This document shows, in pieces, positions 10,976 through 19,710 of a stretch of DNA of 64,000 nucleotides; the first letter of the stretch is position 1; each line of letters opens with the position of its first letter. This DNA comes from Thermoproteota archaeon (lineage in GTDB: Archaea; Korarchaeota; JAOZGF01; JAOZFZ01), in contig JAOZFT010000004.1 in the NCBI GenBank assembly GCA_027492035.1, positions 186,001 to 250,000 on the forward strand, read 5' to 3'. Made by a program: the position numbers and the translations under genes. A model generated the notes under the pieces. That model saw nothing but the letters and a program-made list of their open reading frames with translations. It ran no database searches and was not told where the DNA came from.

Positions 10976-11374
10976 CTACTTAACCTGCATTATTTTTTGA
11001 TAACCTAAAGAAGACCACACAGTCACTTCTTTGCCTATTTCTACTTGCGACTTTAACTCTTCATTATCTGGAAAAGGAACTTCAAAAACTTCATAAGTTT
11101 CTAAATCCATAACTTGAACAAATTCACCTGGAATCGCTATGACTTGACATGTCCTCTTTTTAATTATGGGAGTGTCTACAATGGCATCTACAGGGCTAAC
11201 TATACTTTTTCTTTTGTTTGTAAAAACACCTATAGCCGTTATGCGTGCTTTGGCGGCTCCATGTTTCCCTGGTTTAGATTTTTCAACCGAGACAACCCTA
11301 TAAGGTTCTGACTCAATTACTATATAGCTTCCCTTCTTTAATTTTCCTACTTCGGTAGGTCTTGTTTCACTCAA
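10976..11374 (-). CDS. eif5a: Translation factor aIF5A
   Basis: A 132-residue aIF5A that promotes peptide bond formation at difficult sequences. The hypusine loop SKPGKHGAAK is intact, with the modified lysine at residue 37. N-terminal SH3-like and C-terminal OB domains have normal length. It is the first gene of the minus-strand run to rsmA and diverges from NAD kinase; the roughly 110-nt gap has AT-rich promoter-like sequence on both sides. Confidence 0.96.
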   Translation of the reverse strand: MSETRPTEVGKLKKGSYIVIESEPYRVVSVEKSKPGKHGAAKARITAIGVFTNKRKSIVSPVDAIVDTPIIKKRTCQVIAIPGEFVQVMDLETYEVFEVPFPDNEELKSQVEIGKEVTVWSSLGYQKIMQVK

Positions 11375-11485
11375 TTTTTTCCCAACCCCTAAAAAATTTA
11401 GTTTTAAAAGAGAGGAAATAGGTGAGGTTATTTAAAAGCCTGAATTTTTATAACCTCTTTTTATTTTTAAAATCTACGTGCTTAA

Positions 11486-12388
11486 ATGATAAAGTGGTTA
11501 AGGTTAAAGGAGATGGAAGACCTGTTTGAGAAAGTTTTCATAGTTTCAAGAGTGGATAAACAAGAAGCTAAACAAGTTTTAACTTTAGCAATTAATCTCC
11601 TAAAAAATAAAACTACAGAATTATATGTAGTAAGTGATGCTGCTGGTTTGGTGGAAAAGCCGGAATTAAGCCGCCCATTAAATGAAGTGAGGAGCATAAA
11701 GCCGAGTTTATTGGTTTCAATCGGAGGCGATGGAACTATCCTATGGCTTCACAACAGAATACAGGAAGAAACTCCCCCAATTCTACCGGTTAAAGTTGGA
11801 ACCTTTGGCTTCCTAAGTGAGATAACCCCTGACCAACTGGGAAGGGCAATAGCTAAAATAGAGAAAAATTCCTTCTACATAGAAAGGAGAGCCAAGCTTA
11901 AGTTAAAAGTAAATAAAATAGAAAAGGATTTCCTCAATGAAGCAACTATAATAACGAAAACTTGTAAATGTTCCAATTTACAAATAAGTATAGAAAAAGA
12001 AAAGCTAATCCAAGGGTTAATGGATGGATGTTTAGTCTCGACACCAACAGGGTCTTTAGCATATAACTTAAGCGCAGGCGGCCCAGTTGTTGATCCAGAA
12101 ACCGAAGTATCAATTGTTACATTATTAAACCCTTGGCCGTTCGCAAGCTTCACCCCGATAAAAAGGATAGTAGTGCCAATGAACAAAAGAATTTCAGTTA
12201 CAAACATAGATAAGAAGGAGGTAGCAGTATTTGCTGACGGTGAGAAAGTGACTGAAATCAAGAAACTTGAAAAAGTGGAAGTGGAGAAATCTCCCAAAAA
12301 AATAAGTTTCGTAAGATTTGACAAAAACTTTTTCTATAAGAGGTTTAGAAATTGGAGGAAGAAAATTCCGAAACGATTTATGTTCTAG
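11486..12388 (+). CDS. nadK: NAD kinase
   Basis: Phosphorylates NAD to NADP. It has the GGDGT motif (SIGGDGTILWLHN, about residues 75-87), the NEA motif (FLNEATI), and the C-terminal TPTGSLAYNLSAGGPVVDP. The family length is usually 250-280; this one, 300 residues, carries a slightly longer N-terminus and a basic tail (RNWRKKIPKRFMF). The last 37 nt overlap nob1, so the two are translationally coupled. Confidence 0.94.
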   Translation: MIKWLRLKEMEDLFEKVFIVSRVDKQEAKQVLTLAINLLKNKTTELYVVSDAAGLVEKPELSRPLNEVRSIKPSLLVSIGGDGTILWLHNRIQEETPPILPVKVGTFGFLSEITPDQLGRAIAKIEKNSFYIERRAKLKLKVNKIEKDFLNEATIITKTCKCSNLQISIEKEKLIQGLMDGCLVSTPTGSLAYNLSAGGPVVDPETEVSIVTLLNPWPFASFTPIKRIVVPMNKRISVTNIDKKEVAVFADGEKVTEIKKLEKVEVEKSPKKISFVRFDKNFFYKRFRNWRKKIPKRFMF

Positions 12389-12891
12389 ACACTTCAGCAT
12401 TAGCTTTCATCAACTCATTAAAAGGATTTAGGAGGGGATACATAGCAGAAGAAACAAAAAAGGAGCTGCGGCACTTCAAAACAAAATTAGTTTTTGAAGC
12501 ACTAATTCATTCTCAAAGGCTTCAAGTGAAGCCTGTGAATAAAAAATTTTTGAAAGAAACAGTTAAAAAAGCAAATGAAACAGGGGAATATTTGAGACTG
12601 TCCAAAACAGACTTGTACACGGTTGCTCTCGCTCACCAAATCAAAAAAGAGGAAGGAAAGAAAGTAATCGTTCTAACAGATGATTACACAATTCAAAACT
12701 TATGCGAACACATGGAAATAGATTGGAAACCTGTAAAGGAGCGAGGAATAAGGAAAGTTGCCAAATGGGAGCTGAAATGTACATCTTGCGGCAAAATATG
12801 GAGAAATACAGAAATAGAAATATGCCCCATCTGTGGAGGTAAATTAAAAAAGAGAATGATCTTCCAAGACAATGGAGAGACAAAAAAATGA
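12352..12891 (+). CDS. nob1: Endoribonuclease Nob1
   Basis: The PIN-domain nuclease that cuts the 3' end of 16S rRNA precursor. The PIN domain begins at YVLDTSALAFI (about residues 10-20) with further acidic residues at VLTDDYT. The C-terminal zinc ribbon has CTSCGKIW and CPICGGKL. The start is TTG at 12352 with GAGGTTTAGAAA in front, inside the end of nadK. The stop overlaps the GPN GTPase start by 4 nt. Length 179, normal for archaeal Nob1. Confidence 0.94.
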   Translation: MEEENSETIYVLDTSALAFINSLKGFRRGYIAEETKKELRHFKTKLVFEALIHSQRLQVKPVNKKFLKETVKKANETGEYLRLSKTDLYTVALAHQIKKEEGKKVIVLTDDYTIQNLCEHMEIDWKPVKERGIRKVAKWELKCTSCGKIWRNTEIEICPICGGKLKKRMIFQDNGETKK

Positions 12892-13625
12892 TTATAACAT
12901 ATGTAATAGGGAGCGCTGGCTCCGGAAAAACCTTGTTCACTTTGGCACTAAAAACTCAGTTAACATACAGTGAAGAAAACATTATTTCAGTAAATTTGGA
13001 CCCGGCAGTTAAAAAAACACCTTACTCACCAGAAGTAGACATAAGAGACTATGTCAACATAGATAACATTGTTTTCGAAGAAGAAGTAGGGCCTAATGCC
13101 GCATTAATGCTGTCCTATGAGAAAGCCACCACAGTCATTGACCAAATAATTAGGGACATAAATTATTACTCCCCTGAAGTAGTGATAATAGACACCCCAG
13201 GCCAGTTAGAATTGTTCATACTTAAAAAAGTAGGTTTAGACGTGATAAACAGTTTAAGAATAGATAAACAACTTGCTTTTTATTTGATAGATTCACATGC
13301 AGCCCTAGATGCAGAGGATCTCATTACTCAACTCTTACTAGCCACTATTTGCCATTTTCGGTTGAAAATGCCCATATATCTAGTGCTTTCAAAAACAGAT
13401 TTGGTTACAGACAAGGAAGTAGATATACTTTGTGAAAGAATAAAAAAACCCAGTGAACTCCTAAAGGAGTTGAACAAAAAACACGAAGTAGGAGACATAG
13501 ATCTACATACAATTAGATATCTTGAAACATACGAAGGCTTCGGGGAAGTCTTACCTACTTCAGCATTAGCAATGAAAGGGTTCGACAATGTGTATTTAGT
13601 TATTGATTCATACAAAAATTTATAA
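12888..13625 (+). CDS. GPN-loop GTPase
   Basis: A 245-residue GPN-family GTPase. P-loop GSAGSGKTLF (about 8-17), the diagnostic GPN motif GPNAALMLSYE (about 69-79) and DTPGQLELF (about 100). Eukaryotic relatives assist RNA polymerase assembly; the archaeal role is not settled. It overlaps nob1 by 4 nt and precedes uL16 by 68 nt. Confidence 0.94.
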   Translation: MIITYVIGSAGSGKTLFTLALKTQLTYSEENIISVNLDPAVKKTPYSPEVDIRDYVNIDNIVFEEEVGPNAALMLSYEKATTVIDQIIRDINYYSPEVVIIDTPGQLELFILKKVGLDVINSLRIDKQLAFYLIDSHAALDAEDLITQLLLATICHFRLKMPIYLVLSKTDLVTDKEVDILCERIKKPSELLKELNKKHEVGDIDLHTIRYLETYEGFGEVLPTSALAMKGFDNVYLVIDSYKNL

Positions 13626-13693
13626 GGAAACTTAAAATGAATTAAGAAATAAGGAAAAGTAACGGTTGAGAAAGACAAAGGAGATGTAAAAGG

Positions 13694-14227
13694 ATGCCAT
13701 TAAGACCAGGTAGGAGTTACAGAAATTATAACGGCCCAGCATTTACCAGACTAGAATATATGAACGTGAAACCTAAATCCAAATTAATGAAGGTCACCAT
13801 GGGAAACCCGAACCGGGACTATGATTACAGAGTAAAATTAGTCGCCAAAGAACAATTACAAATAAGGCATAACGCACTTGAGGCTGCAAGGATGGCTGCA
13901 AACAGGTATTTAACAACAAAAGCAAGCAAGGAATCCTTTTATTTAGTTATGAAAACGATCCCCCACCAGATCCTAAGAGAAAACCCAATACTTAACACAA
14001 CCCATGCTGATAGGTGGCAGGAGGGAATGAGGAAAGCATTTGGGAAAAACATAGGGTTAGCTGCAAGGGTTAAACCCGGTTCAGTAGTGATGGAAGCCAT
14101 GATAAAGGAAGATGCACTGCCAATCGCTAAAGAAGCTCTAAGAAGAGCTGCAAGTAAACTACCTAAAAAATATAAAATAGTAATAGAGAAAATGAATGGA
14201 CAACAGAAAAATGAAAATAAATCTTAA
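13694..14227 (+). CDS. rpl10e: Ribosomal protein uL16 (L10e)
   Basis: A 177-residue large-subunit protein that helps shape the A-site/P-site region. The N-terminus MPLRPGRSYRNYNGPAFTR and the central AARMAANRY and MRKAFGK are characteristic. ATG follows GGAGATGTAAAAGG. Its C-terminus overlaps the dph2 start region by 32 nt, an unusually long overlap. Confidence 0.96.
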   Translation: MPLRPGRSYRNYNGPAFTRLEYMNVKPKSKLMKVTMGNPNRDYDYRVKLVAKEQLQIRHNALEAARMAANRYLTTKASKESFYLVMKTIPHQILRENPILNTTHADRWQEGMRKAFGKNIGLAARVKPGSVVMEAMIKEDALPIAKEALRRAASKLPKKYKIVIEKMNGQQKNENKS

Positions 14228-15185
14228 CATAGACAAAGTGATAGAAACAATAAAAGAAAAGAAATATAAGGTAATTGCTTTAGAGGGACCTGAAGGCTTA
14301 AAACCGAAAATAAAAGATGTTGCAGAAAAAATTGAGGAAGAAACGGGAGCAACAGTAATTACTGTAGGTGAACCTTGCAGAGGTGCCTGTGACTTAAAAA
14401 ATGAAATTCTACCAAAAAATGTAGAAGCTATTTTCCATTTCGGCCACAAAAAGATGTTAAATACCATTAAAAACGTTTACTACCTAGAAGCAACAATAGA
14501 TTGCCCTAATTGGACAAAGAAAATAGAAAGAGAAATCCAGAAACTTGATGAAACAAAAAGGATAGTTGTTGTAACAACTAGCCCTTACGAGGAGTTAGCT
14601 AAAAAGACAGCAAGATACATCTTAAAAAGAGGAATGAAAATACATACCACAGAAAAGGGGCATCCAACCGTGATAAATGTTTTAGGATGTCAAGTAAAGG
14701 AAATAGAAGGAGTTGATAAAGAAACTGACCTTTATTTATTCATTGGAGACGGAGTTTTCCATCCTTTAGGAGTTGCGCTTAACACAACAAAGAAAGTCTA
14801 CCAAATAGGCCCTGAGGCACCTATATTGAGAAACCTCAGCCAATACAGAAACAAAATACTGAAAAAAAGGCTTTTAGTTATAGAAAAGGCGAGAGAAAAA
14901 AAGAAATTTGGAGTGATACTGGGCCTAAAGCCTGGGCAAAGAAAACTAAAAGAAGCCATGCAAATAAAAGAAAAATTAAAGAAGGCAGGTTACAAAGCAG
15001 TAATTATAGCTTTAGATGAAATAAATCCAGAAAAAATAATTAATTTCCCGGACCTAGAAGCAATAGTTAACACAGCTTGTCCCAGAGTTTCAATTGACGA
15101 CCAACAAAACTTCCACGTACCTGTATTGACAACAAAAGAGGCTGAGTATATGTTAAAGCTCATAGGGAGGTATAAACCATTCTAA
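14196..15185 (+). CDS. dph2: Diphthamide synthase, 4Fe-4S radical subunit Dph2
   Basis: Carries out the first step of diphthamide formation on elongation factor 2. The three cysteines that hold the 4Fe-4S cluster are visible in GEPCRGACDL, INVLGCQV and VNTACPRVS. The length of 329 residues is normal. ATG at 14196 lies inside the end of uL16; a second ATG (14211, MKINLNI) is an alternative start that shortens the overlap. The stop codon overlaps the AUU start inferred for the methyltransferase downstream. Confidence 0.94.
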   Translation: MDNRKMKINLNIDKVIETIKEKKYKVIALEGPEGLKPKIKDVAEKIEEETGATVITVGEPCRGACDLKNEILPKNVEAIFHFGHKKMLNTIKNVYYLEATIDCPNWTKKIEREIQKLDETKRIVVVTTSPYEELAKKTARYILKRGMKIHTTEKGHPTVINVLGCQVKEIEGVDKETDLYLFIGDGVFHPLGVALNTTKKVYQIGPEAPILRNLSQYRNKILKKRLLVIEKAREKKKFGVILGLKPGQRKLKEAMQIKEKLKKAGYKAVIIALDEINPEKIINFPDLEAIVNTACPRVSIDDQQNFHVPVLTTKEAEYMLKLIGRYKPF

Positions 15186-15811
15186 GAATTAAACCCCTCA
15201 CCCAAAAAAATTTAGAAATAATATTAGAGAAACTGAAAAAACCTGAGAAATTAAACTACAAATTAGAACAATATGTTACGCCTTCAAAATTAGCAGCGGA
15301 CTTGCTTCATTTTGCTTACATGCAGGGGGACATAGAAGGCAGAAAGGTAATCGATTTAGGTTGCGGAAATGGCATATTAAGTATAGGGGCTTGGTTACTT
15401 GGAGCTAAAACAGTTACAGGCGTAGAAATAGATAATAAATTACTTCAATTAGCTATACAAAACAGTAAAGTATTTAAAGCCCAAATAAAATGGCTGAACT
15501 TAGATATAAGGGAGTTAAAAGGAGAGTATGACACAGTTCTCCAGAATCCCCCATTCGGAACAAAGAAAAGATCAACCGACATTTTATTCCTTAAAAAGGC
15601 TTTACAGTTAGGAAAAGTAGTTTATAGCATTCACAAGTCAGGCAATAGGTTATTTATAAGCAAAAAAGCTAGGGAAAACAGAGGAATTGTAACCCATGTT
15701 CTGCAACGTGAAATACAAATACCATGGTGTTATATCTTCCATATAAAACCAAAATACACAGTGGAAGTGGAAGTCTATCGCATAGTCCGGCAAAATCAAG
15801 TCAAATTATAA
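15179..15811 (+). CDS. METTL5-like RNA N6-adenine methyltransferase, apparent AUU start
   Basis: A Rossmann SAM-dependent methyltransferase with VIDLGCGNGILSIGAWLLGA and the N6-adenine motif NPPF (LQNPPFGTKK). METTL5-type enzymes methylate small-subunit rRNA. The conserved N-terminal block (NLEIILEKLKK...LEQYVTPSKLAADLL) lies upstream of the first ATG/GTG/TTG: the first such codon in frame is TTG 15302, which would delete it. The frame stays open up to ATT 15179, 7 nt after a strong GGGAGGT, with TAA immediately before in the same frame. I therefore place the start at AUU 15179, overlapping the dph2 stop. Confidence 0.85.
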   Translation: MLRIKPLTQKNLEIILEKLKKPEKLNYKLEQYVTPSKLAADLLHFAYMQGDIEGRKVIDLGCGNGILSIGAWLLGAKTVTGVEIDNKLLQLAIQNSKVFKAQIKWLNLDIRELKGEYDTVLQNPPFGTKKRSTDILFLKKALQLGKVVYSIHKSGNRLFISKKARENRGIVTHVLQREIQIPWCYIFHIKPKYTVEVEVYRIVRQNQVKL

Positions 15812-15860
15812 GGCCTAATTAAAAGATTTATGAAGACGATGAAGAAGAGGTGGTAACGCT

Positions 15861-16463
15861 GTGTTAAAAAAGTACCCAAAAACAGGGGAGTTAGTTATAC
15901 CAGGCGAAAAATTAAGCCCATTGGAAGTTTTCATGCCTGGGGAAAACGTGTACGTGGAAGACGGTTTTATTTATGCAGCCAAAATTGGCAATGTATTACA
16001 GGACTTGAAAAAAAGGAAGGTGTGGGTTTACTCCAGAACAGATAAACCTGCTTTACTCAAACCAGGGGAAATAGTACTAGGTCAAGTGACTCAAATAAAA
16101 GATAAATCCCTTACTGTCAAAATATTTGCTAAGTTAAAACCGAAGAAGACGTTGTTCAAAACCCCTTTCACCGGCGAGATTTACATTGCAAATGCAAAAA
16201 GGGAATTTCTTGAAACAATGAGCCAAGCGTTCACGGTAGGAGATATTATCAAATGCAAAGTGTCTAAAGTTACAGGTTACCTAATAGCTCTAGACACTAA
16301 AGATCCTGATTTAGGAATAGTTTACTCTAGATGCACAAAATGTTACATACCGTTAAAAGCAGTAACAATAAAAAGGAAGCAAATACTTCAATGCCCAAAA
16401 TGTAAGATAATATACCCAAACAAGAAAGTAGCTAGAGATTACGGAAAAATAATCTTGCACTGA
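15861..16463 (+). CDS. csl4: Exosome subunit Csl4
   Basis: RNA-binding cap subunit of the archaeal exosome. The N-terminal domain (VIPGEKLSPLEVFMPGENVY) is followed by an S1 domain (about 70-145) and a C-terminal zinc ribbon (CTKC about 155, CPKC about 178). The gene starts with GTG at 15861. It is the first of a csl4-rpoL-nudix-TFS run, consistent with the RNA processing and transcription operon common in archaea. Confidence 0.94.
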   Translation: MLKKYPKTGELVIPGEKLSPLEVFMPGENVYVEDGFIYAAKIGNVLQDLKKRKVWVYSRTDKPALLKPGEIVLGQVTQIKDKSLTVKIFAKLKPKKTLFKTPFTGEIYIANAKREFLETMSQAFTVGDIIKCKVSKVTGYLIALDTKDPDLGIVYSRCTKCYIPLKAVTIKRKQILQCPKCKIIYPNKKVARDYGKIILH

Positions 16464-16478
16464 AAGAAGGCGAAGGAA

Positions 16479-16787
16479 ATGGAAGTAAAAATATTAAACA
16501 AGGAAAAAAACAAATTGAGATTGTTAGTGAAAGGAGAAACTCACACTCTCCTCAATTTAATTGCTGACTATGGGAACAAAGACCCAAAAATAAAGTTCAT
16601 CGGCTACTCAATACCTCATCCATTAAAAACGGAAGCTGAACTAAACCTCCAAACTATAGACGAAGACCCTATCCAAGCGTTAAAAAGACAAGTCTCTAAA
16701 GCAACTATAGATCTAGAGCAACTCCAAAAAGTTTTTAATTCAGTTTTTACAAATAACAAAAGCAAAGAGAAGGGGCCTTCAAAGTGA
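16479..16787 (+). CDS. rpoL: RNA polymerase subunit L (Rpo11)
   Basis: Archaeal Rpb11 counterpart, 102 residues, which dimerises with Rpo3 in polymerase assembly. The segment EKNKLRLLVKGETHTLLNLI and KFIGYSIPHPLKTEAELNL match the family. It overlaps the Nudix gene by 4 nt. Confidence 0.96.
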   Translation: MEVKILNKEKNKLRLLVKGETHTLLNLIADYGNKDPKIKFIGYSIPHPLKTEAELNLQTIDEDPIQALKRQVSKATIDLEQLQKVFNSVFTNNKSKEKGPSK

Positions 16788-17176
16788 GACACCCAAGAAT
16801 AGCAGTAGATGCAGTAATAATTAACAAGAAAGGAGAGATACTGTTAATAAAAAGGAAAAATGAACCTTATAAAGGCTACTGGGCACTGCCTGGAGGATTT
16901 GTGGAATACGGCGAAAAAGTAGAAGAAGCGTTGAAAAGAGAGATAAAGGAAGAGACAGGCCTAAAAGCAAAGAAAATAGAACTTGTAGGAGTGTATTCCG
17001 ACCCTAAAAGAGACCCAAGGGGACATGTAATAAGTATCGCATATTTAGTGGAAGAAACTGAAGGAAAACCGAAACCAGCTACAGACGCTCAAGACCTAAA
17101 TTTCTTTTCAAAACTGCCGGAAAAAATAGCTTTTGACCATAGAAAAATACTTAAAGACACAATTAGAAAAATTTAA
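16784..17176 (+). CDS. Nudix hydrolase (ADP-ribose pyrophosphatase type)
   Basis: Hydrolyses a nucleoside diphosphate linked to another moiety. The complete Nudix box GFVEYGEKVEEALKREIKEE is at about residues 38-57, with TGL after it. The N-terminus RHPRIAVDAVIINKKGEILL and 130-residue size resemble archaeal ADP-ribose pyrophosphatases; substrate not proven. It begins inside the end of rpoL. Confidence 0.9.
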   Translation: MRHPRIAVDAVIINKKGEILLIKRKNEPYKGYWALPGGFVEYGEKVEEALKREIKEETGLKAKKIELVGVYSDPKRDPRGHVISIAYLVEETEGKPKPATDAQDLNFFSKLPEKIAFDHRKILKDTIRKI

Positions 17177-17235
17177 AAGCCACAAAATTCACCAATAGAG
17201 ACCTTAACAAACAAGTAGGAAAAGGGGGGAACTGA

Positions 17236-17556
17236 ATGTTTTGCCCTATTTGTGGAAACCTTTTAATAGCAAAAAGAAAGAACGGAAAAAAAGTTTATAT
17301 CTGTTCACAAGGCCACATAATAGAGAAACTTAACGCAAAAAATTCAGCAACAATTTACCAAGCTAAAGAAGCAGAAAAAAAGGGAACAGTTATAATTGAA
17401 GAAGAGCTTATTGCACAGCCAAAAATAGAAATAGAATGTCCAAGATGCGGAAATAAGGAAGCTTATTGGACATTAGAACAAACAAGGTCAGCTGATGAAG
17501 GAGAGACAAGAATATTTACCTGTACGCGATGCCACTATACTTGGAGGGAATATTAA
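17236..17556 (+). CDS. tfs: Transcript cleavage factor TFS
   Basis: A 106-residue TFIIS/Rpb9-like protein that rescues backtracked RNA polymerase. N-terminal ribbon CPICGNLL with CSQGH, and C-terminal ribbon CPRCGNKEAYW...CTRCHYTW. The acidic hairpin RSADEGET carries the DE pair needed to stimulate cleavage, so this is an active TFS rather than a TFS-like inhibitor. GGGGGGAACTGA precedes the ATG. Confidence 0.95.
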   Translation: MFCPICGNLLIAKRKNGKKVYICSQGHIIEKLNAKNSATIYQAKEAEKKGTVIIEEELIAQPKIEIECPRCGNKEAYWTLEQTRSADEGETRIFTCTRCHYTWREY

Positions 17557-17623
17557 AAAATTGTTAATATAATTTAACTTTCCCTATTGTTTTAAAGAAT
17601 AAAGATAATTTGTAAAAAAGCCT

Positions 17624-18052
17624 TTAAGGTTTCGGCTGAAGTGAAAGCACCTTTTCGTTAAGTCTGTACCTGTACCCAAGCTTATTTTCTCCCCATCTTC
17701 TAATTAATTTACCACTGCTAAAGAAACGGTATAGGTAAGTTGAAGCCACATTTTTTGGGAGTTTCTCCCCAAAAAAATCTAAATAGGCCTCTCTAAGTTC
17801 TCTACTCGTAAACCAAACTTTGCTAAACCTAGAGCAGATGATATACCAAACTCTGTCAGAAGTAGAATTAAATGAAGAAAAGCTGAAGGAAGAAAATTCA
17901 TTAAGTGAAGAATTATCAACACTTGACAATGAAAACTTTGTTAAGAAATCAAGAAGTATGGAAGGATCAACTTTCCCTTCAAGAGACATTTTAATTTCTC
18001 CATTTTCAAACAAATCAAAGATCAATCTAGCTTTCCTTTTCCTTAAATTCAT
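17624..18052 (-). CDS. Hypothetical protein with C-terminal winged-helix-like region, beside the putative origin
   Basis: A 142-residue protein I do not recognise. The middle is Ser-rich and low complexity (LSSVDNSSLNEFSSFSFSSFNS). The C-terminal half (SKVWFTSRELREAYLDFF ... ASTYLYRFFSSGKLIRRWGE) reads like a winged-helix DNA-binding fold. It transcribes away from the putative replication origin that begins at its 5' end, which makes an origin-linked DNA-binding role an attractive but unproven idea. Confidence 0.6.
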   Translation of the reverse strand: MNLRKRKARLIFDLFENGEIKMSLEGKVDPSILLDFLTKFSLSSVDNSSLNEFSSFSFSSFNSTSDRVWYIICSRFSKVWFTSRELREAYLDFFGEKLPKNVASTYLYRFFSSGKLIRRWGENKLGYRYRLNEKVLSLQPKP

Positions 18053-18076
18053 TGTTTAAAACCCTCGCCTGTATTA

Positions 18077-18486
18077 CATTTCCACTCTTTAATAAAATAT
18101 TAATAATCGGTTTACAAAGGTAAAAAATTTGTGAACTATAACAGAAAGGGAACCAATGTACAGAATAAAAATTTAGCTATTAAATCTTTCATTTCCACTG
18201 AAAAACGATAAGTCATCAACAAAAAGAACTAAAGGAATTAAATTCAAACAATACTGGCAAAACAGAAGAAAATAAAGGTATATGTAATACTTCCTGTATC
18301 CTCCCTCTAAACGCTTTTTAGGTGGAGTTTAGTGGAAATGAAGGGGGGACGTAATAGTAAACTTTCATTTAAATATGTGAATTTTAGTGAACTTTTAACA
18401 TACACACCCCTTTATTTCAGCTGAAATAAATCTTCAATAAATTTTCCGAAGTTCTATTTTCTGCTGGGGTAAAGTTGAGTGGAAAT
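18077..18486. other. Putative replication origin with four ORB-like boxes
   Basis: In this gene-free 560-nt segment the 9-mer AGTGGAAAT occurs four times: minus strand at 18078-18086 and 18191-18199, plus strand at 18329-18337 and 18478-18486. The inner two are extended: TTCAGTGGAAATGAAAG (minus) and TTTAGTGGAAATGAAGGGGG (plus), the latter with the G-string typical of archaeal origin recognition boxes bound by Orc1/Cdc6. The boxes form two pairs in inverted orientation around an AT-rich centre (about 18200-18325), the standard archaeal origin layout. No orc1/cdc6 gene is in the window; RPA, Lhr helicase and PolD DP2 lie within 14 kb. Confidence 0.7.
18411..18430. repeat. 20-bp perfect palindrome inside the putative origin
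   Basis: TTTATTTCAGCTGAAATAAA is a perfect palindrome between the third and fourth origin boxes, next to CACACCCC. It could be a dimeric protein site or a cruciform; alternatively an operator for the downstream prenyl synthase gene. Confidence 0.5.
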
Positions 18487-18558
18487 AGATGAAACATACG
18501 TGTGTGCAGGTTTTTCAAACATAAATTATTAAAACCTTTCTGTTTTAAGAGAAGGTAA

Positions 18559-18572
18559 AGTTTTTAAAAATA
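18559..18572 (+). promoter_or_regulatory. TATA-like promoter of the prenyl synthase gene
   Basis: AGTTTTTAAAAATA lies about 45 nt upstream of ATG 18613, a typical archaeal TATA box position for a short leader. GGTGG just before the ATG is the ribosome binding site. Confidence 0.4.
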
Positions 18573-18612
18573 AGAGTGAATTTCTCTGTACCTTCTTAAT
18601 TAAGGTGGTTTA

Positions 18613-19710
18613 ATGCGAGAGAAATCGTTGGGAGATCTTCTTGTCGAGATTGAAAAAAGAAGTAAACTCGTTTATGAAACTTATATACTCAGTAGTAAAT
18701 ATAAATCCATTTTTAAGCCGAAAGATATAATGGAAGGTATTCTTCTTTACCCCTCCTATAAGGGAAAGGGATTAAGGCCCGCTGTGCTTCTTTTTGCTTG
18801 TGGCGCAGTGGGAGGGGATGAAAATAAAGCTTTACCTGCAGCTGCTGCTGTAGAACTTTTCCATACTTGGACATTAGTTCATGATGACATAATTGATAGG
18901 GATAAGAAGCGGAGAGGAGGACCTACTGTTCATATATATTTAAGTGACAAAGCAAAAAGAGTTTATGGGTGGGACCCCGAAACTTCCTTACATTATGGAC
19001 TATCACTAGCCATACTAGTTGGAGATACCCAAAAAGGCTGGTCAATAGGGGAGTTAATGTATCTACTTTATAAGGAGAAAGGAGTTAACCCTGTTTTAGT
19101 GCTTGAATTGATCCACAAATTAGATTTTATTACTCTTAACACTTTAGTAGAGGGTGAATCCCTAGATGTTCTTTATTCTAGGAAACCAGTTAATAAACTC
19201 ACCGAAAAAGAAATAATAGACATGTTATGGAGAAAGACAGGGGCCCTTTATAGTTTTTGTGGTGAAGCAGGTGCCATGATAGGATTAAACACTATCTATG
19301 AAAACGAGTTTGTTAAGGCTTTAAGAGATTTCACTGCAAGTTGTGGAATTGCTTTTCAACTTCAGGATGACATTCTAGGGATTGTGGGAGATGAAAATAA
19401 GCTTGGTAAACCTGTTGGTTCTGACATCCGGGAAGGTAAAAGAACGGTTATTTTGTGGTATGCTTACAAGTCTGTGGGTCCATCTGAAAGGAAATTACTG
19501 GAAAAGGTTGTAGGTAACGCCTCAGCAGAGCCGGAGGAAATTCAGGAAGTTGTTGATTTGTTAAAAGAATCAGGAGCTATTGATTACGCCAAAAATTTAG
19601 CTGTGGATTATGTAGAAAATTCTTTACCGAAACTAAATATTCTCCCTGAGACCAAGTACAAGGATCTTTTAATTTCATGGGCTAACTTCTTAATCGAAAG
19701 GAAATTTTAA
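18613..19710 (+). CDS. Polyprenyl (geranylgeranyl) diphosphate synthase
   Basis: Builds the isoprenoid chain for membrane ether lipids. The first aspartate-rich motif is in LVHDDIIDRD (about residues 92-101) and the second in FQLQDDILGIVGDE (about 250-263), followed by KPVGSDIREGKRT. It is 365 residues, a little longer than the usual 320-340. The GGGP synthase and G1P dehydrogenase that use its product are at 40-42 kb. Its stop overlaps the convergent FAD dehydrogenase by 4 nt. Chain length cannot be read from sequence alone. Confidence 0.9.
   Translation: MREKSLGDLLVEIEKRSKLVYETYILSSKYKSIFKPKDIMEGILLYPSYKGKGLRPAVLLFACGAVGGDENKALPAAAAVELFHTWTLVHDDIIDRDKKRRGGPTVHIYLSDKAKRVYGWDPETSLHYGLSLAILVGDTQKGWSIGELMYLLYKEKGVNPVLVLELIHKLDFITLNTLVEGESLDVLYSRKPVNKLTEKEIIDMLWRKTGALYSFCGEAGAMIGLNTIYENEFVKALRDFTASCGIAFQLQDDILGIVGDENKLGKPVGSDIREGKRTVILWYAYKSVGPSERKLLEKVVGNASAEPEEIQEVVDLLKESGAIDYAKNLAVDYVENSLPKLNILPETKYKDLLISWANFLIERKF

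Follow-up and report, generated by a model that had tools for sequence, protein, structure and literature searches.

Archaeal origins of replication are usually predicted beside orc1/cdc6 genes, and the control of initiation in archaea is poorly understood. The proposed origin described here departs from that rule. The window, i.e., the whole stretch of 64,000 nucleotides that was analysed, is carried by contig C9 of an assembly comprising 42 contigs and 1,868,193 bases (1.87 Mb), and window position ~18.3 kb corresponds to C9:204.3 kb. An original prediction, made from sequence alone, had placed a chromosomal origin with ORB-like boxes at 18053-18612. We regard this region as likely to be a chromosomal origin of the Orc1/Cdc6-ORB type, because the ORB motif, an independent switch in strand composition with calibrated polarity, and the anatomy of comparable loci in other archaea all support it. 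Its activity is inferred, without marker-frequency, footprint or genetic data.

Boxes in the intergenic region

The proposed origin (18053..18612, no strand assigned) is an intergenic region of 560 nt with a G+C content of 29.6%, compared to 36.0% for the window. It is bounded by two divergent genes. The gene on the left (17624..18052, minus strand) encodes a winged-helix (WH) protein of 142 aa from an uncharacterised archaeal family, while the other flank is a polyprenyl synthetase gene (GGPP synthase-like; 18613..19710, plus strand), which is not thought to be part of the mechanism. In relatives, no conserved origin was found at the GGPPS gene.

Exact copies of the 9-mer AGTGGAAAT occur four times in the 64-kb window, all of them within 18078-18486: at 18078-18086 and 18191-18199 on the minus strand, and at 18331-18339 and 18478-18486 on the plus strand. 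The claim of four boxes in two inverted pairs (- - + +) held. So did the claim that such a cluster is unexpected by chance, since a simple Poisson estimate gave ~6e-6 as the chance that any copy of AGTGGAAAT has three more within 410 nt; no second cluster of such kind was found genome-wide (1.87 Mb). The 43 copies present in the 1,868,193 bases are scattered as chance predicts. With one mismatch, the 9-mer was found 31 times against 28 expected, i.e., at background frequency, and therefore it is the cluster and the longer motif that count, not the 9-mer.

As the longer motif we used the common ORB motif, TCCA[CG]T[TG]GAAA[TC][GA]AAGGGGT, from the Ori-Finder 2 publication (PMC4164010). The best match, TTCAGCTGAAATAAAGGGGT at 18406-18425 on the minus strand (C9 204406(-)), has 2 mismatches of 20 positions. 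The ORB TTTAGTGGAAATGAAGGGGG at 18328-18347 on the plus strand (C9 204328(+)) has 3 mismatches, encloses the third copy of the 9-mer and bears the canonical G-string claimed for one of the boxes, which was verified at 18343-18348. A weaker ORB without G-string, TTCAGTGGAAATGAAAGATT at 18183-18202 on the minus strand, has 4 mismatches and encloses the second copy. The two outer copies, at 18078 and 18478, are without the G-string half and fall short of the full motif even when 5 mismatches are allowed; they are mini-ORB-like at best. The original list of boxes was thus only partly correct: it overlooked the best ORB, and its outer two members fail the full motif.

Genome-wide, the motif was matched at up to 3 mismatches in five places. 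Two lie in this intergenic region, and the remaining three have no full G-string; a backwards control motif gave 3 matches at the same threshold. Matches of this quality bearing the G-string are limited, in 1.87 Mb, to 18406-18425 and 18328-18347. In the 660 kb of contig C9 that were scanned, the only other place was 307872(-), with 3 mismatches and no G-string. Here, two boxes at up to 3 mismatches, and three at up to 4, fit in 243 nt of the intergenic region. According to the original prediction, boxes scattered throughout the genome would have refuted the origin. Such scatter is seen for the 9-mer alone and not for the full ORB, whose near-uniqueness, like the boxes themselves, is shown computationally.

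The ORBs form two kinds of pairs. The inner pair, 18183(-) and 18328(+), diverges with a start-to-start spacing of 145 nt, and ORB pairs spaced 141-150 nt in the same orientation were found at the WH loci of family f42. The 125 nt within this pair (18203..18327; 32% G+C) is a candidate unwinding region, a role inferred from the geometry. The ORBs 18328(+) and 18406(-) have their G-strings facing each other across an AT-rich core of 58 nt (18348..18405; 24% G+C), whose role is also inferred. The claim of an AT-rich core held both for the intergenic region as a whole and for the 24-32% G+C between the ORBs. In the closest relative (G001), a facing ORB-like pair precedes the WH gene at the corresponding position. 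The best ORB lies about -376 from the WH start in the window and its counterpart about -370 in G001; 18328-18347 has an aligned counterpart too, and these ORBs of the relative are degenerate, with 4 or more mismatches. The sequence aligned with the first 9-mer copy, AGTGGAA, adjoins the WH start in G001. No ORB at up to 4 mismatches was found at the WH locus of an order-level relative (G002).

Initiator genes and strand composition

The original prediction had noted the lack of an adjacent orc1/cdc6 gene, which held: no orc1 was found next to 18053-18612 or anywhere in the window. The three orc1/cdc6 genes are located at C9:160.5 kb, at C9:324.2 kb, where the gene adjoins the PolD small subunit, and on contig C12. 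A search for the box near these genes had been proposed as a check. It showed that the ~4-kb loci around all three (L001-L003) contain no ORB at up to 4 mismatches. In G001, two orc1 loci were examined and had no ORBs at up to 3 mismatches. Only a lone dyad, TTCCAGTGGAAC / GTTCCACTGGAAC, was observed at L001:880-895 (about C9:323,619), ~0.7 kb upstream of orc1-1 and without G-string. Two tRNA-like stretches separate it from orc1-1, and it may represent either a vestigial ORB or an additional site.

Cumulative GC skew had also been proposed as a check. In its raw form the signal was dominated by gene orientation, and it was dropped as evidence and replaced by a strand-corrected analysis. For this, 587 long ORFs were called on C9, and skew at fourfold-degenerate sites was corrected for gene orientation over 660 of the 666 kb of the contig. 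The maximum of the cumulative A-T residual, at 203,837, falls in the WH gene itself, and the A-T changepoint at this gene (z 5.18) is the highest over 660 kb, the permutation 95% limit being about 3.5. A joint fit of orientation and breakpoint placed the A-T break between the WH and GGPPS genes, i.e., in this intergenic region, with all third positions and fourfold sites alike. The G-C skew switch is less sharp than the A-T switch at the site. Its changepoint z is 4.82 here and reaches a maximum of 5.04 at 270 kb, while in the joint fit G-C broke best at 192.8 kb when all third positions were used and at 270.8 kb with fourfold sites, the site following closely.

The polarity of the switch was calibrated in other lineages, at loci combining ORBs, orc1 and WH in G271 (f8, Nitrosopumilales) and G038. 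The skew sign at the window is the same as in G271 (z 5.0 and 10.3) and in G038 (7.3 and 2.9), and we therefore read it as the polarity of an origin, not of a terminus. Both the switch and its polarity are shown computationally. As a separate observation, positions 11000-19000 of the window have a strong A-over-T excess on the plus strand (AT skew up to 0.30) together with a run of plus-strand genes, ending near 19 kb.

The winged-helix family and an upstream DNA box

The WH protein has no Pfam or NCBIfam assignment, and a partial search of the literature gave no description of the family, which other catalogues may list by a number. The structural model predicts a confident winged helix in residues 61-130 (pLDDT blocks about 84-95), with Fur and PadR types as the best fold matches (Z 9-11), and a beta-hairpin plus helix of low model confidence in the N-terminal part. 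In the alignments (A1, A2) the window's protein fulfils the criteria of the family, i.e., an N-terminal beta segment, a C-terminal wHTH and the motif S-T-Y-L-x-R. Cdt1 identity was rejected for the family, as the Pfam CDT1 models were unmatched at E<=0.1 by 6 members and at E<=0.01 by 18 members. Two of 18 members gave a match (best E 2.7e-4) to Pfam's MCM C-terminal winged-helix model, which we take as no more than a lead.

A profile search recovered the family from 63 of 394 archaeal genomes, 60 of which were true after inspection, with one copy each. The low-scoring matches in G193, G377 and G324 were dismissed, two of them being the C-terminal domain of Orc1/Cdc6 and the third a short HTH protein. 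The weak match of the profile to the C-terminal winged helix of Orc1/Cdc6-type proteins was seen at L196 and L197 (G193, G377).

In Nitrosopumilales the WH gene is divergent from orc1-DP1, with 1-3 ORB matches between them in most genomes. We also fetched 21 relatives by name, G001 and 20 thaumarchaeal genomes; in all 20 of the latter the homolog lies opposite orc1, and ORBs at up to 4 mismatches were present between the two in 17. Families f15 and f65 have orc1, DP1 and ORBs near the WH gene. In f42, an ORB at up to 2 mismatches precedes the WH gene by 190-325 bp in all eight genomes; neither orc1 locus carries one at up to 3 mismatches in the three genomes whose orc1 loci were examined. Most genomes of f31 have an ORB ~310-360 bp from the WH gene. 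In about 18 genomes from several families the WH gene is divergent from ftsZ, with no ORB there, and in this set ORBs were present at most of the main orc1 loci examined. Overall, ORBs were denser near the WH gene (0.19 per kb) than in the remainder of these loci (0.045 per kb). The linkage of the family to ORBs or orc1 is shown computationally. A protein tree, in which several branches are long, joins the ftsZ-linked copies with weak support and a single change of label, and places the copy from the window with f42 (88/83).

The original prediction that a winged-helix-like gene (17624) borders the region was correct, and this position is not incidental, as the family flanks origins elsewhere. 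Family f42 repeats the pattern of ORBs at the WH gene with none at the orc1 loci examined. Since ORBs are found at the WH gene and not at orc1 both here and in f42, the WH gene is a new landmark for finding origins.

Two further elements were observed near WH genes or ORBs. In two unrelated archaeal families (L111:8352-8648 in G038; L178:9648-10040 in G277, f42), the immediate neighbour of the ORB pair is a second small protein of about 95-130 aa with the motif LYVYD...F.KELFG..YKW, which may represent another origin-associated family. In nearly all genomes of f31 (L180, L182, L185-L189, L192, L193) the element TCTGAGGGGATGAATGG is present, usually in 2 copies, in the last ~100 nt before the WH start; it might be an RNA or regulatory element.

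Enrichment of 6-mers in the 450 bp preceding the WH gene was assessed against dinucleotide shuffles, with weighting over 19 families. The top word was TGTGAA, with 52 observed against 7.5 expected, and ATTCAC, GTGAAC and GTTAAC were enriched besides. Tandem GTKAA words 8 bp apart scored 9.8 against 0.09 expected. This enrichment is shown computationally. Since the TGTGAAY/GTTAAC box precedes the WH gene whether this is linked to ORBs or to ftsZ, it is most simply read as the WH protein's own site. We find this probable, as an inference from genome context and box enrichment only, with no binding data. In many archaeal families (L158-L170), tandem TGTGAAY boxes occupy the intergenic region of the divergent ftsZ and WH genes, which suggests a common regulator of both.

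In the window, the WH gene is immediately preceded by a conserved block common to G001, CGGTTTACAAAGGTAAAAAATTTGTGAACTA (18109..18139, plus strand). This block has no second copy in the genome and contains a TGTGAAC box at 18130 and the inverted repeat TTTACCTTTGTAAA (TTTAC-N4-GTAAA). It could be an operator of the WH protein, although this too is inferred without binding data. Two more GTGAAY words, GTGAAT (18377) and GTGAAC (18387), are found between the facing ORBs. The boxes are few here and there is no 8-bp tandem, and the box evidence is therefore weaker than in other families. With its linkage to ORBs, orc1 or ftsZ and with the shared DNA box, the WH gene is a candidate link between archaeal replication and division that can be tested.

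Proposed function, rival explanations and known systems

In the proposed mechanism, Orc1 encoded elsewhere (C9:160.5 kb, C9:324.2 kb, C12) would act in trans and bind the ORBs 18406-18425, 18328-18347 and 18183-18202 with polarity. The bound initiators would melt the AT-rich DNA between the ORBs, MCM would be loaded between opposing ORBs, and forks would leave both ways. Polar binding of Orc1, DNA opening and MCM loading between opposing ORBs have been described for other archaea (PMC6742236); for this site the binding, melting and loading are inferred from motif, skew and comparison. The WH protein may bind TGTGAAY/GTTAAC boxes at the origin and at its own promoter, and would then either autoregulate and time initiation or directly assist it. 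Its role is inferred from genome context and box enrichment only. Other origins may exist in the 42-contig genome.

The boxes might instead be transcription-control sites, at which an Orc1/Cdc6 paralog or the WH protein controls the WH and GGPPS genes that diverge from here, with replication starting elsewhere. In favour of this, the boxes lie in a divergent promoter, conservation is strongest in the block at the WH start, and the ftsZ-linked members have TGTGAA boxes without ORB, suggesting autoregulation. However, it predicts neither a skew switch with origin polarity at this intergenic region nor the rarity of full ORBs elsewhere, the orc1 genes included, and we consider it unlikely. Still less likely is an ancestral or dormant origin, of which signature and boxes remain while an orc1-linked site, e.g., near C9:323.6 kb, is now used. 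The degenerate outer boxes, the dyad upstream of orc1-1 and the second G-C skew break near 270 kb speak for it. Against it, that dyad lacks a G-string, L001-L003 are devoid of ORBs at the threshold given above, and the A-T skew break sits at 204 kb. It could finally be argued that replication ends at the skew switch and that the boxes have nothing to do with it. The leading strand of bacteria is usually G-rich, and a G-rich leading strand here would make the cumulative G-C maximum a terminus. We consider this very unlikely, as the skew sign equals that at the orc1-ORB-WH loci of two other archaea, and ORBs mark origins. A horizontally captured extrachromosomal origin was also rejected, the WH protein of Nitrosopumilales having no homolog in phage or plasmid collections.

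A bolder reading would be that the WH family constitutes a widespread, so far unrecognised origin factor of archaea apart from Orc1/Cdc6 and WhiP, binding TGTGAAY/GTTAAC at origins and coupling initiation to division where it is ftsZ-adjacent, and that here the WH gene, and not orc1, has remained at the origin. We consider this less likely than not. The preferred reading remains an Orc1/Cdc6-ORB origin, and it can be compared with several known systems.

Sulfolobus oriC3 with WhiP is similar to the window in that the origin adjoins a winged-helix protein gene; oriC3 has no ORB or mini-ORB according to PMC4010727, and ORB-like sites according to PMC3718332. The WH family profile gave a best E of 0.01 over 38 residues in two Sulfolobaceae genomes, recognised by their 7-kD DNA-binding family. 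This was not convincing and no WhiP sequence was compared, and the relation to WhiP is therefore not shown. WhiP identity had been suspected when f31 resembled Sulfolobaceae, and was countered by the gene content of f31, with proteasome-activating nucleotidase and UvrB as neighbours. The Sulfolobus ucm-binding protein, UBP, is likewise a small DNA-binding protein at archaeal origins (PMC12141716), but it is a saddle-shaped dimer binding DNA via beta-hairpins (PMC12141716), whereas the window's protein is a predicted winged helix; UBP identity was ruled out on fold.

The Nitrosopumilus-type origin (orc1 - ORBs - WH) shares with the window the ORBs beside a homologous WH gene, recurrent GTKAAY/GTTAAC boxes and an equal sign of strand-corrected skew. 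It differs in having orc1-DP1 across the ORBs, where the window has the polyprenyl synthetase gene, and in that its ORBs are mostly tandem, about 62 bp apart, whereas those of the window are inverted. In this latter respect the window is like the canonical Orc1-ORB origins of Sulfolobus (oriC1), Pyrococcus and Methanomicrobia, which have inverted G-string ORBs around AT-rich DNA (PMC4010727, PMC4164010, PMC12141716), but unlike these it is unlinked to an initiator gene. Such origins are recognised by several ORBs, some with G-string, by AT-rich DNA between inverted ORBs and by a strand-composition switch, all of which are found here; an adjacent orc1/cdc6, which is typical and not strictly required, is missing. 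The proposed origin is thus most probably a new variant of the Orc1-ORB type, with a neighbour from the WH family in place of the initiator gene.
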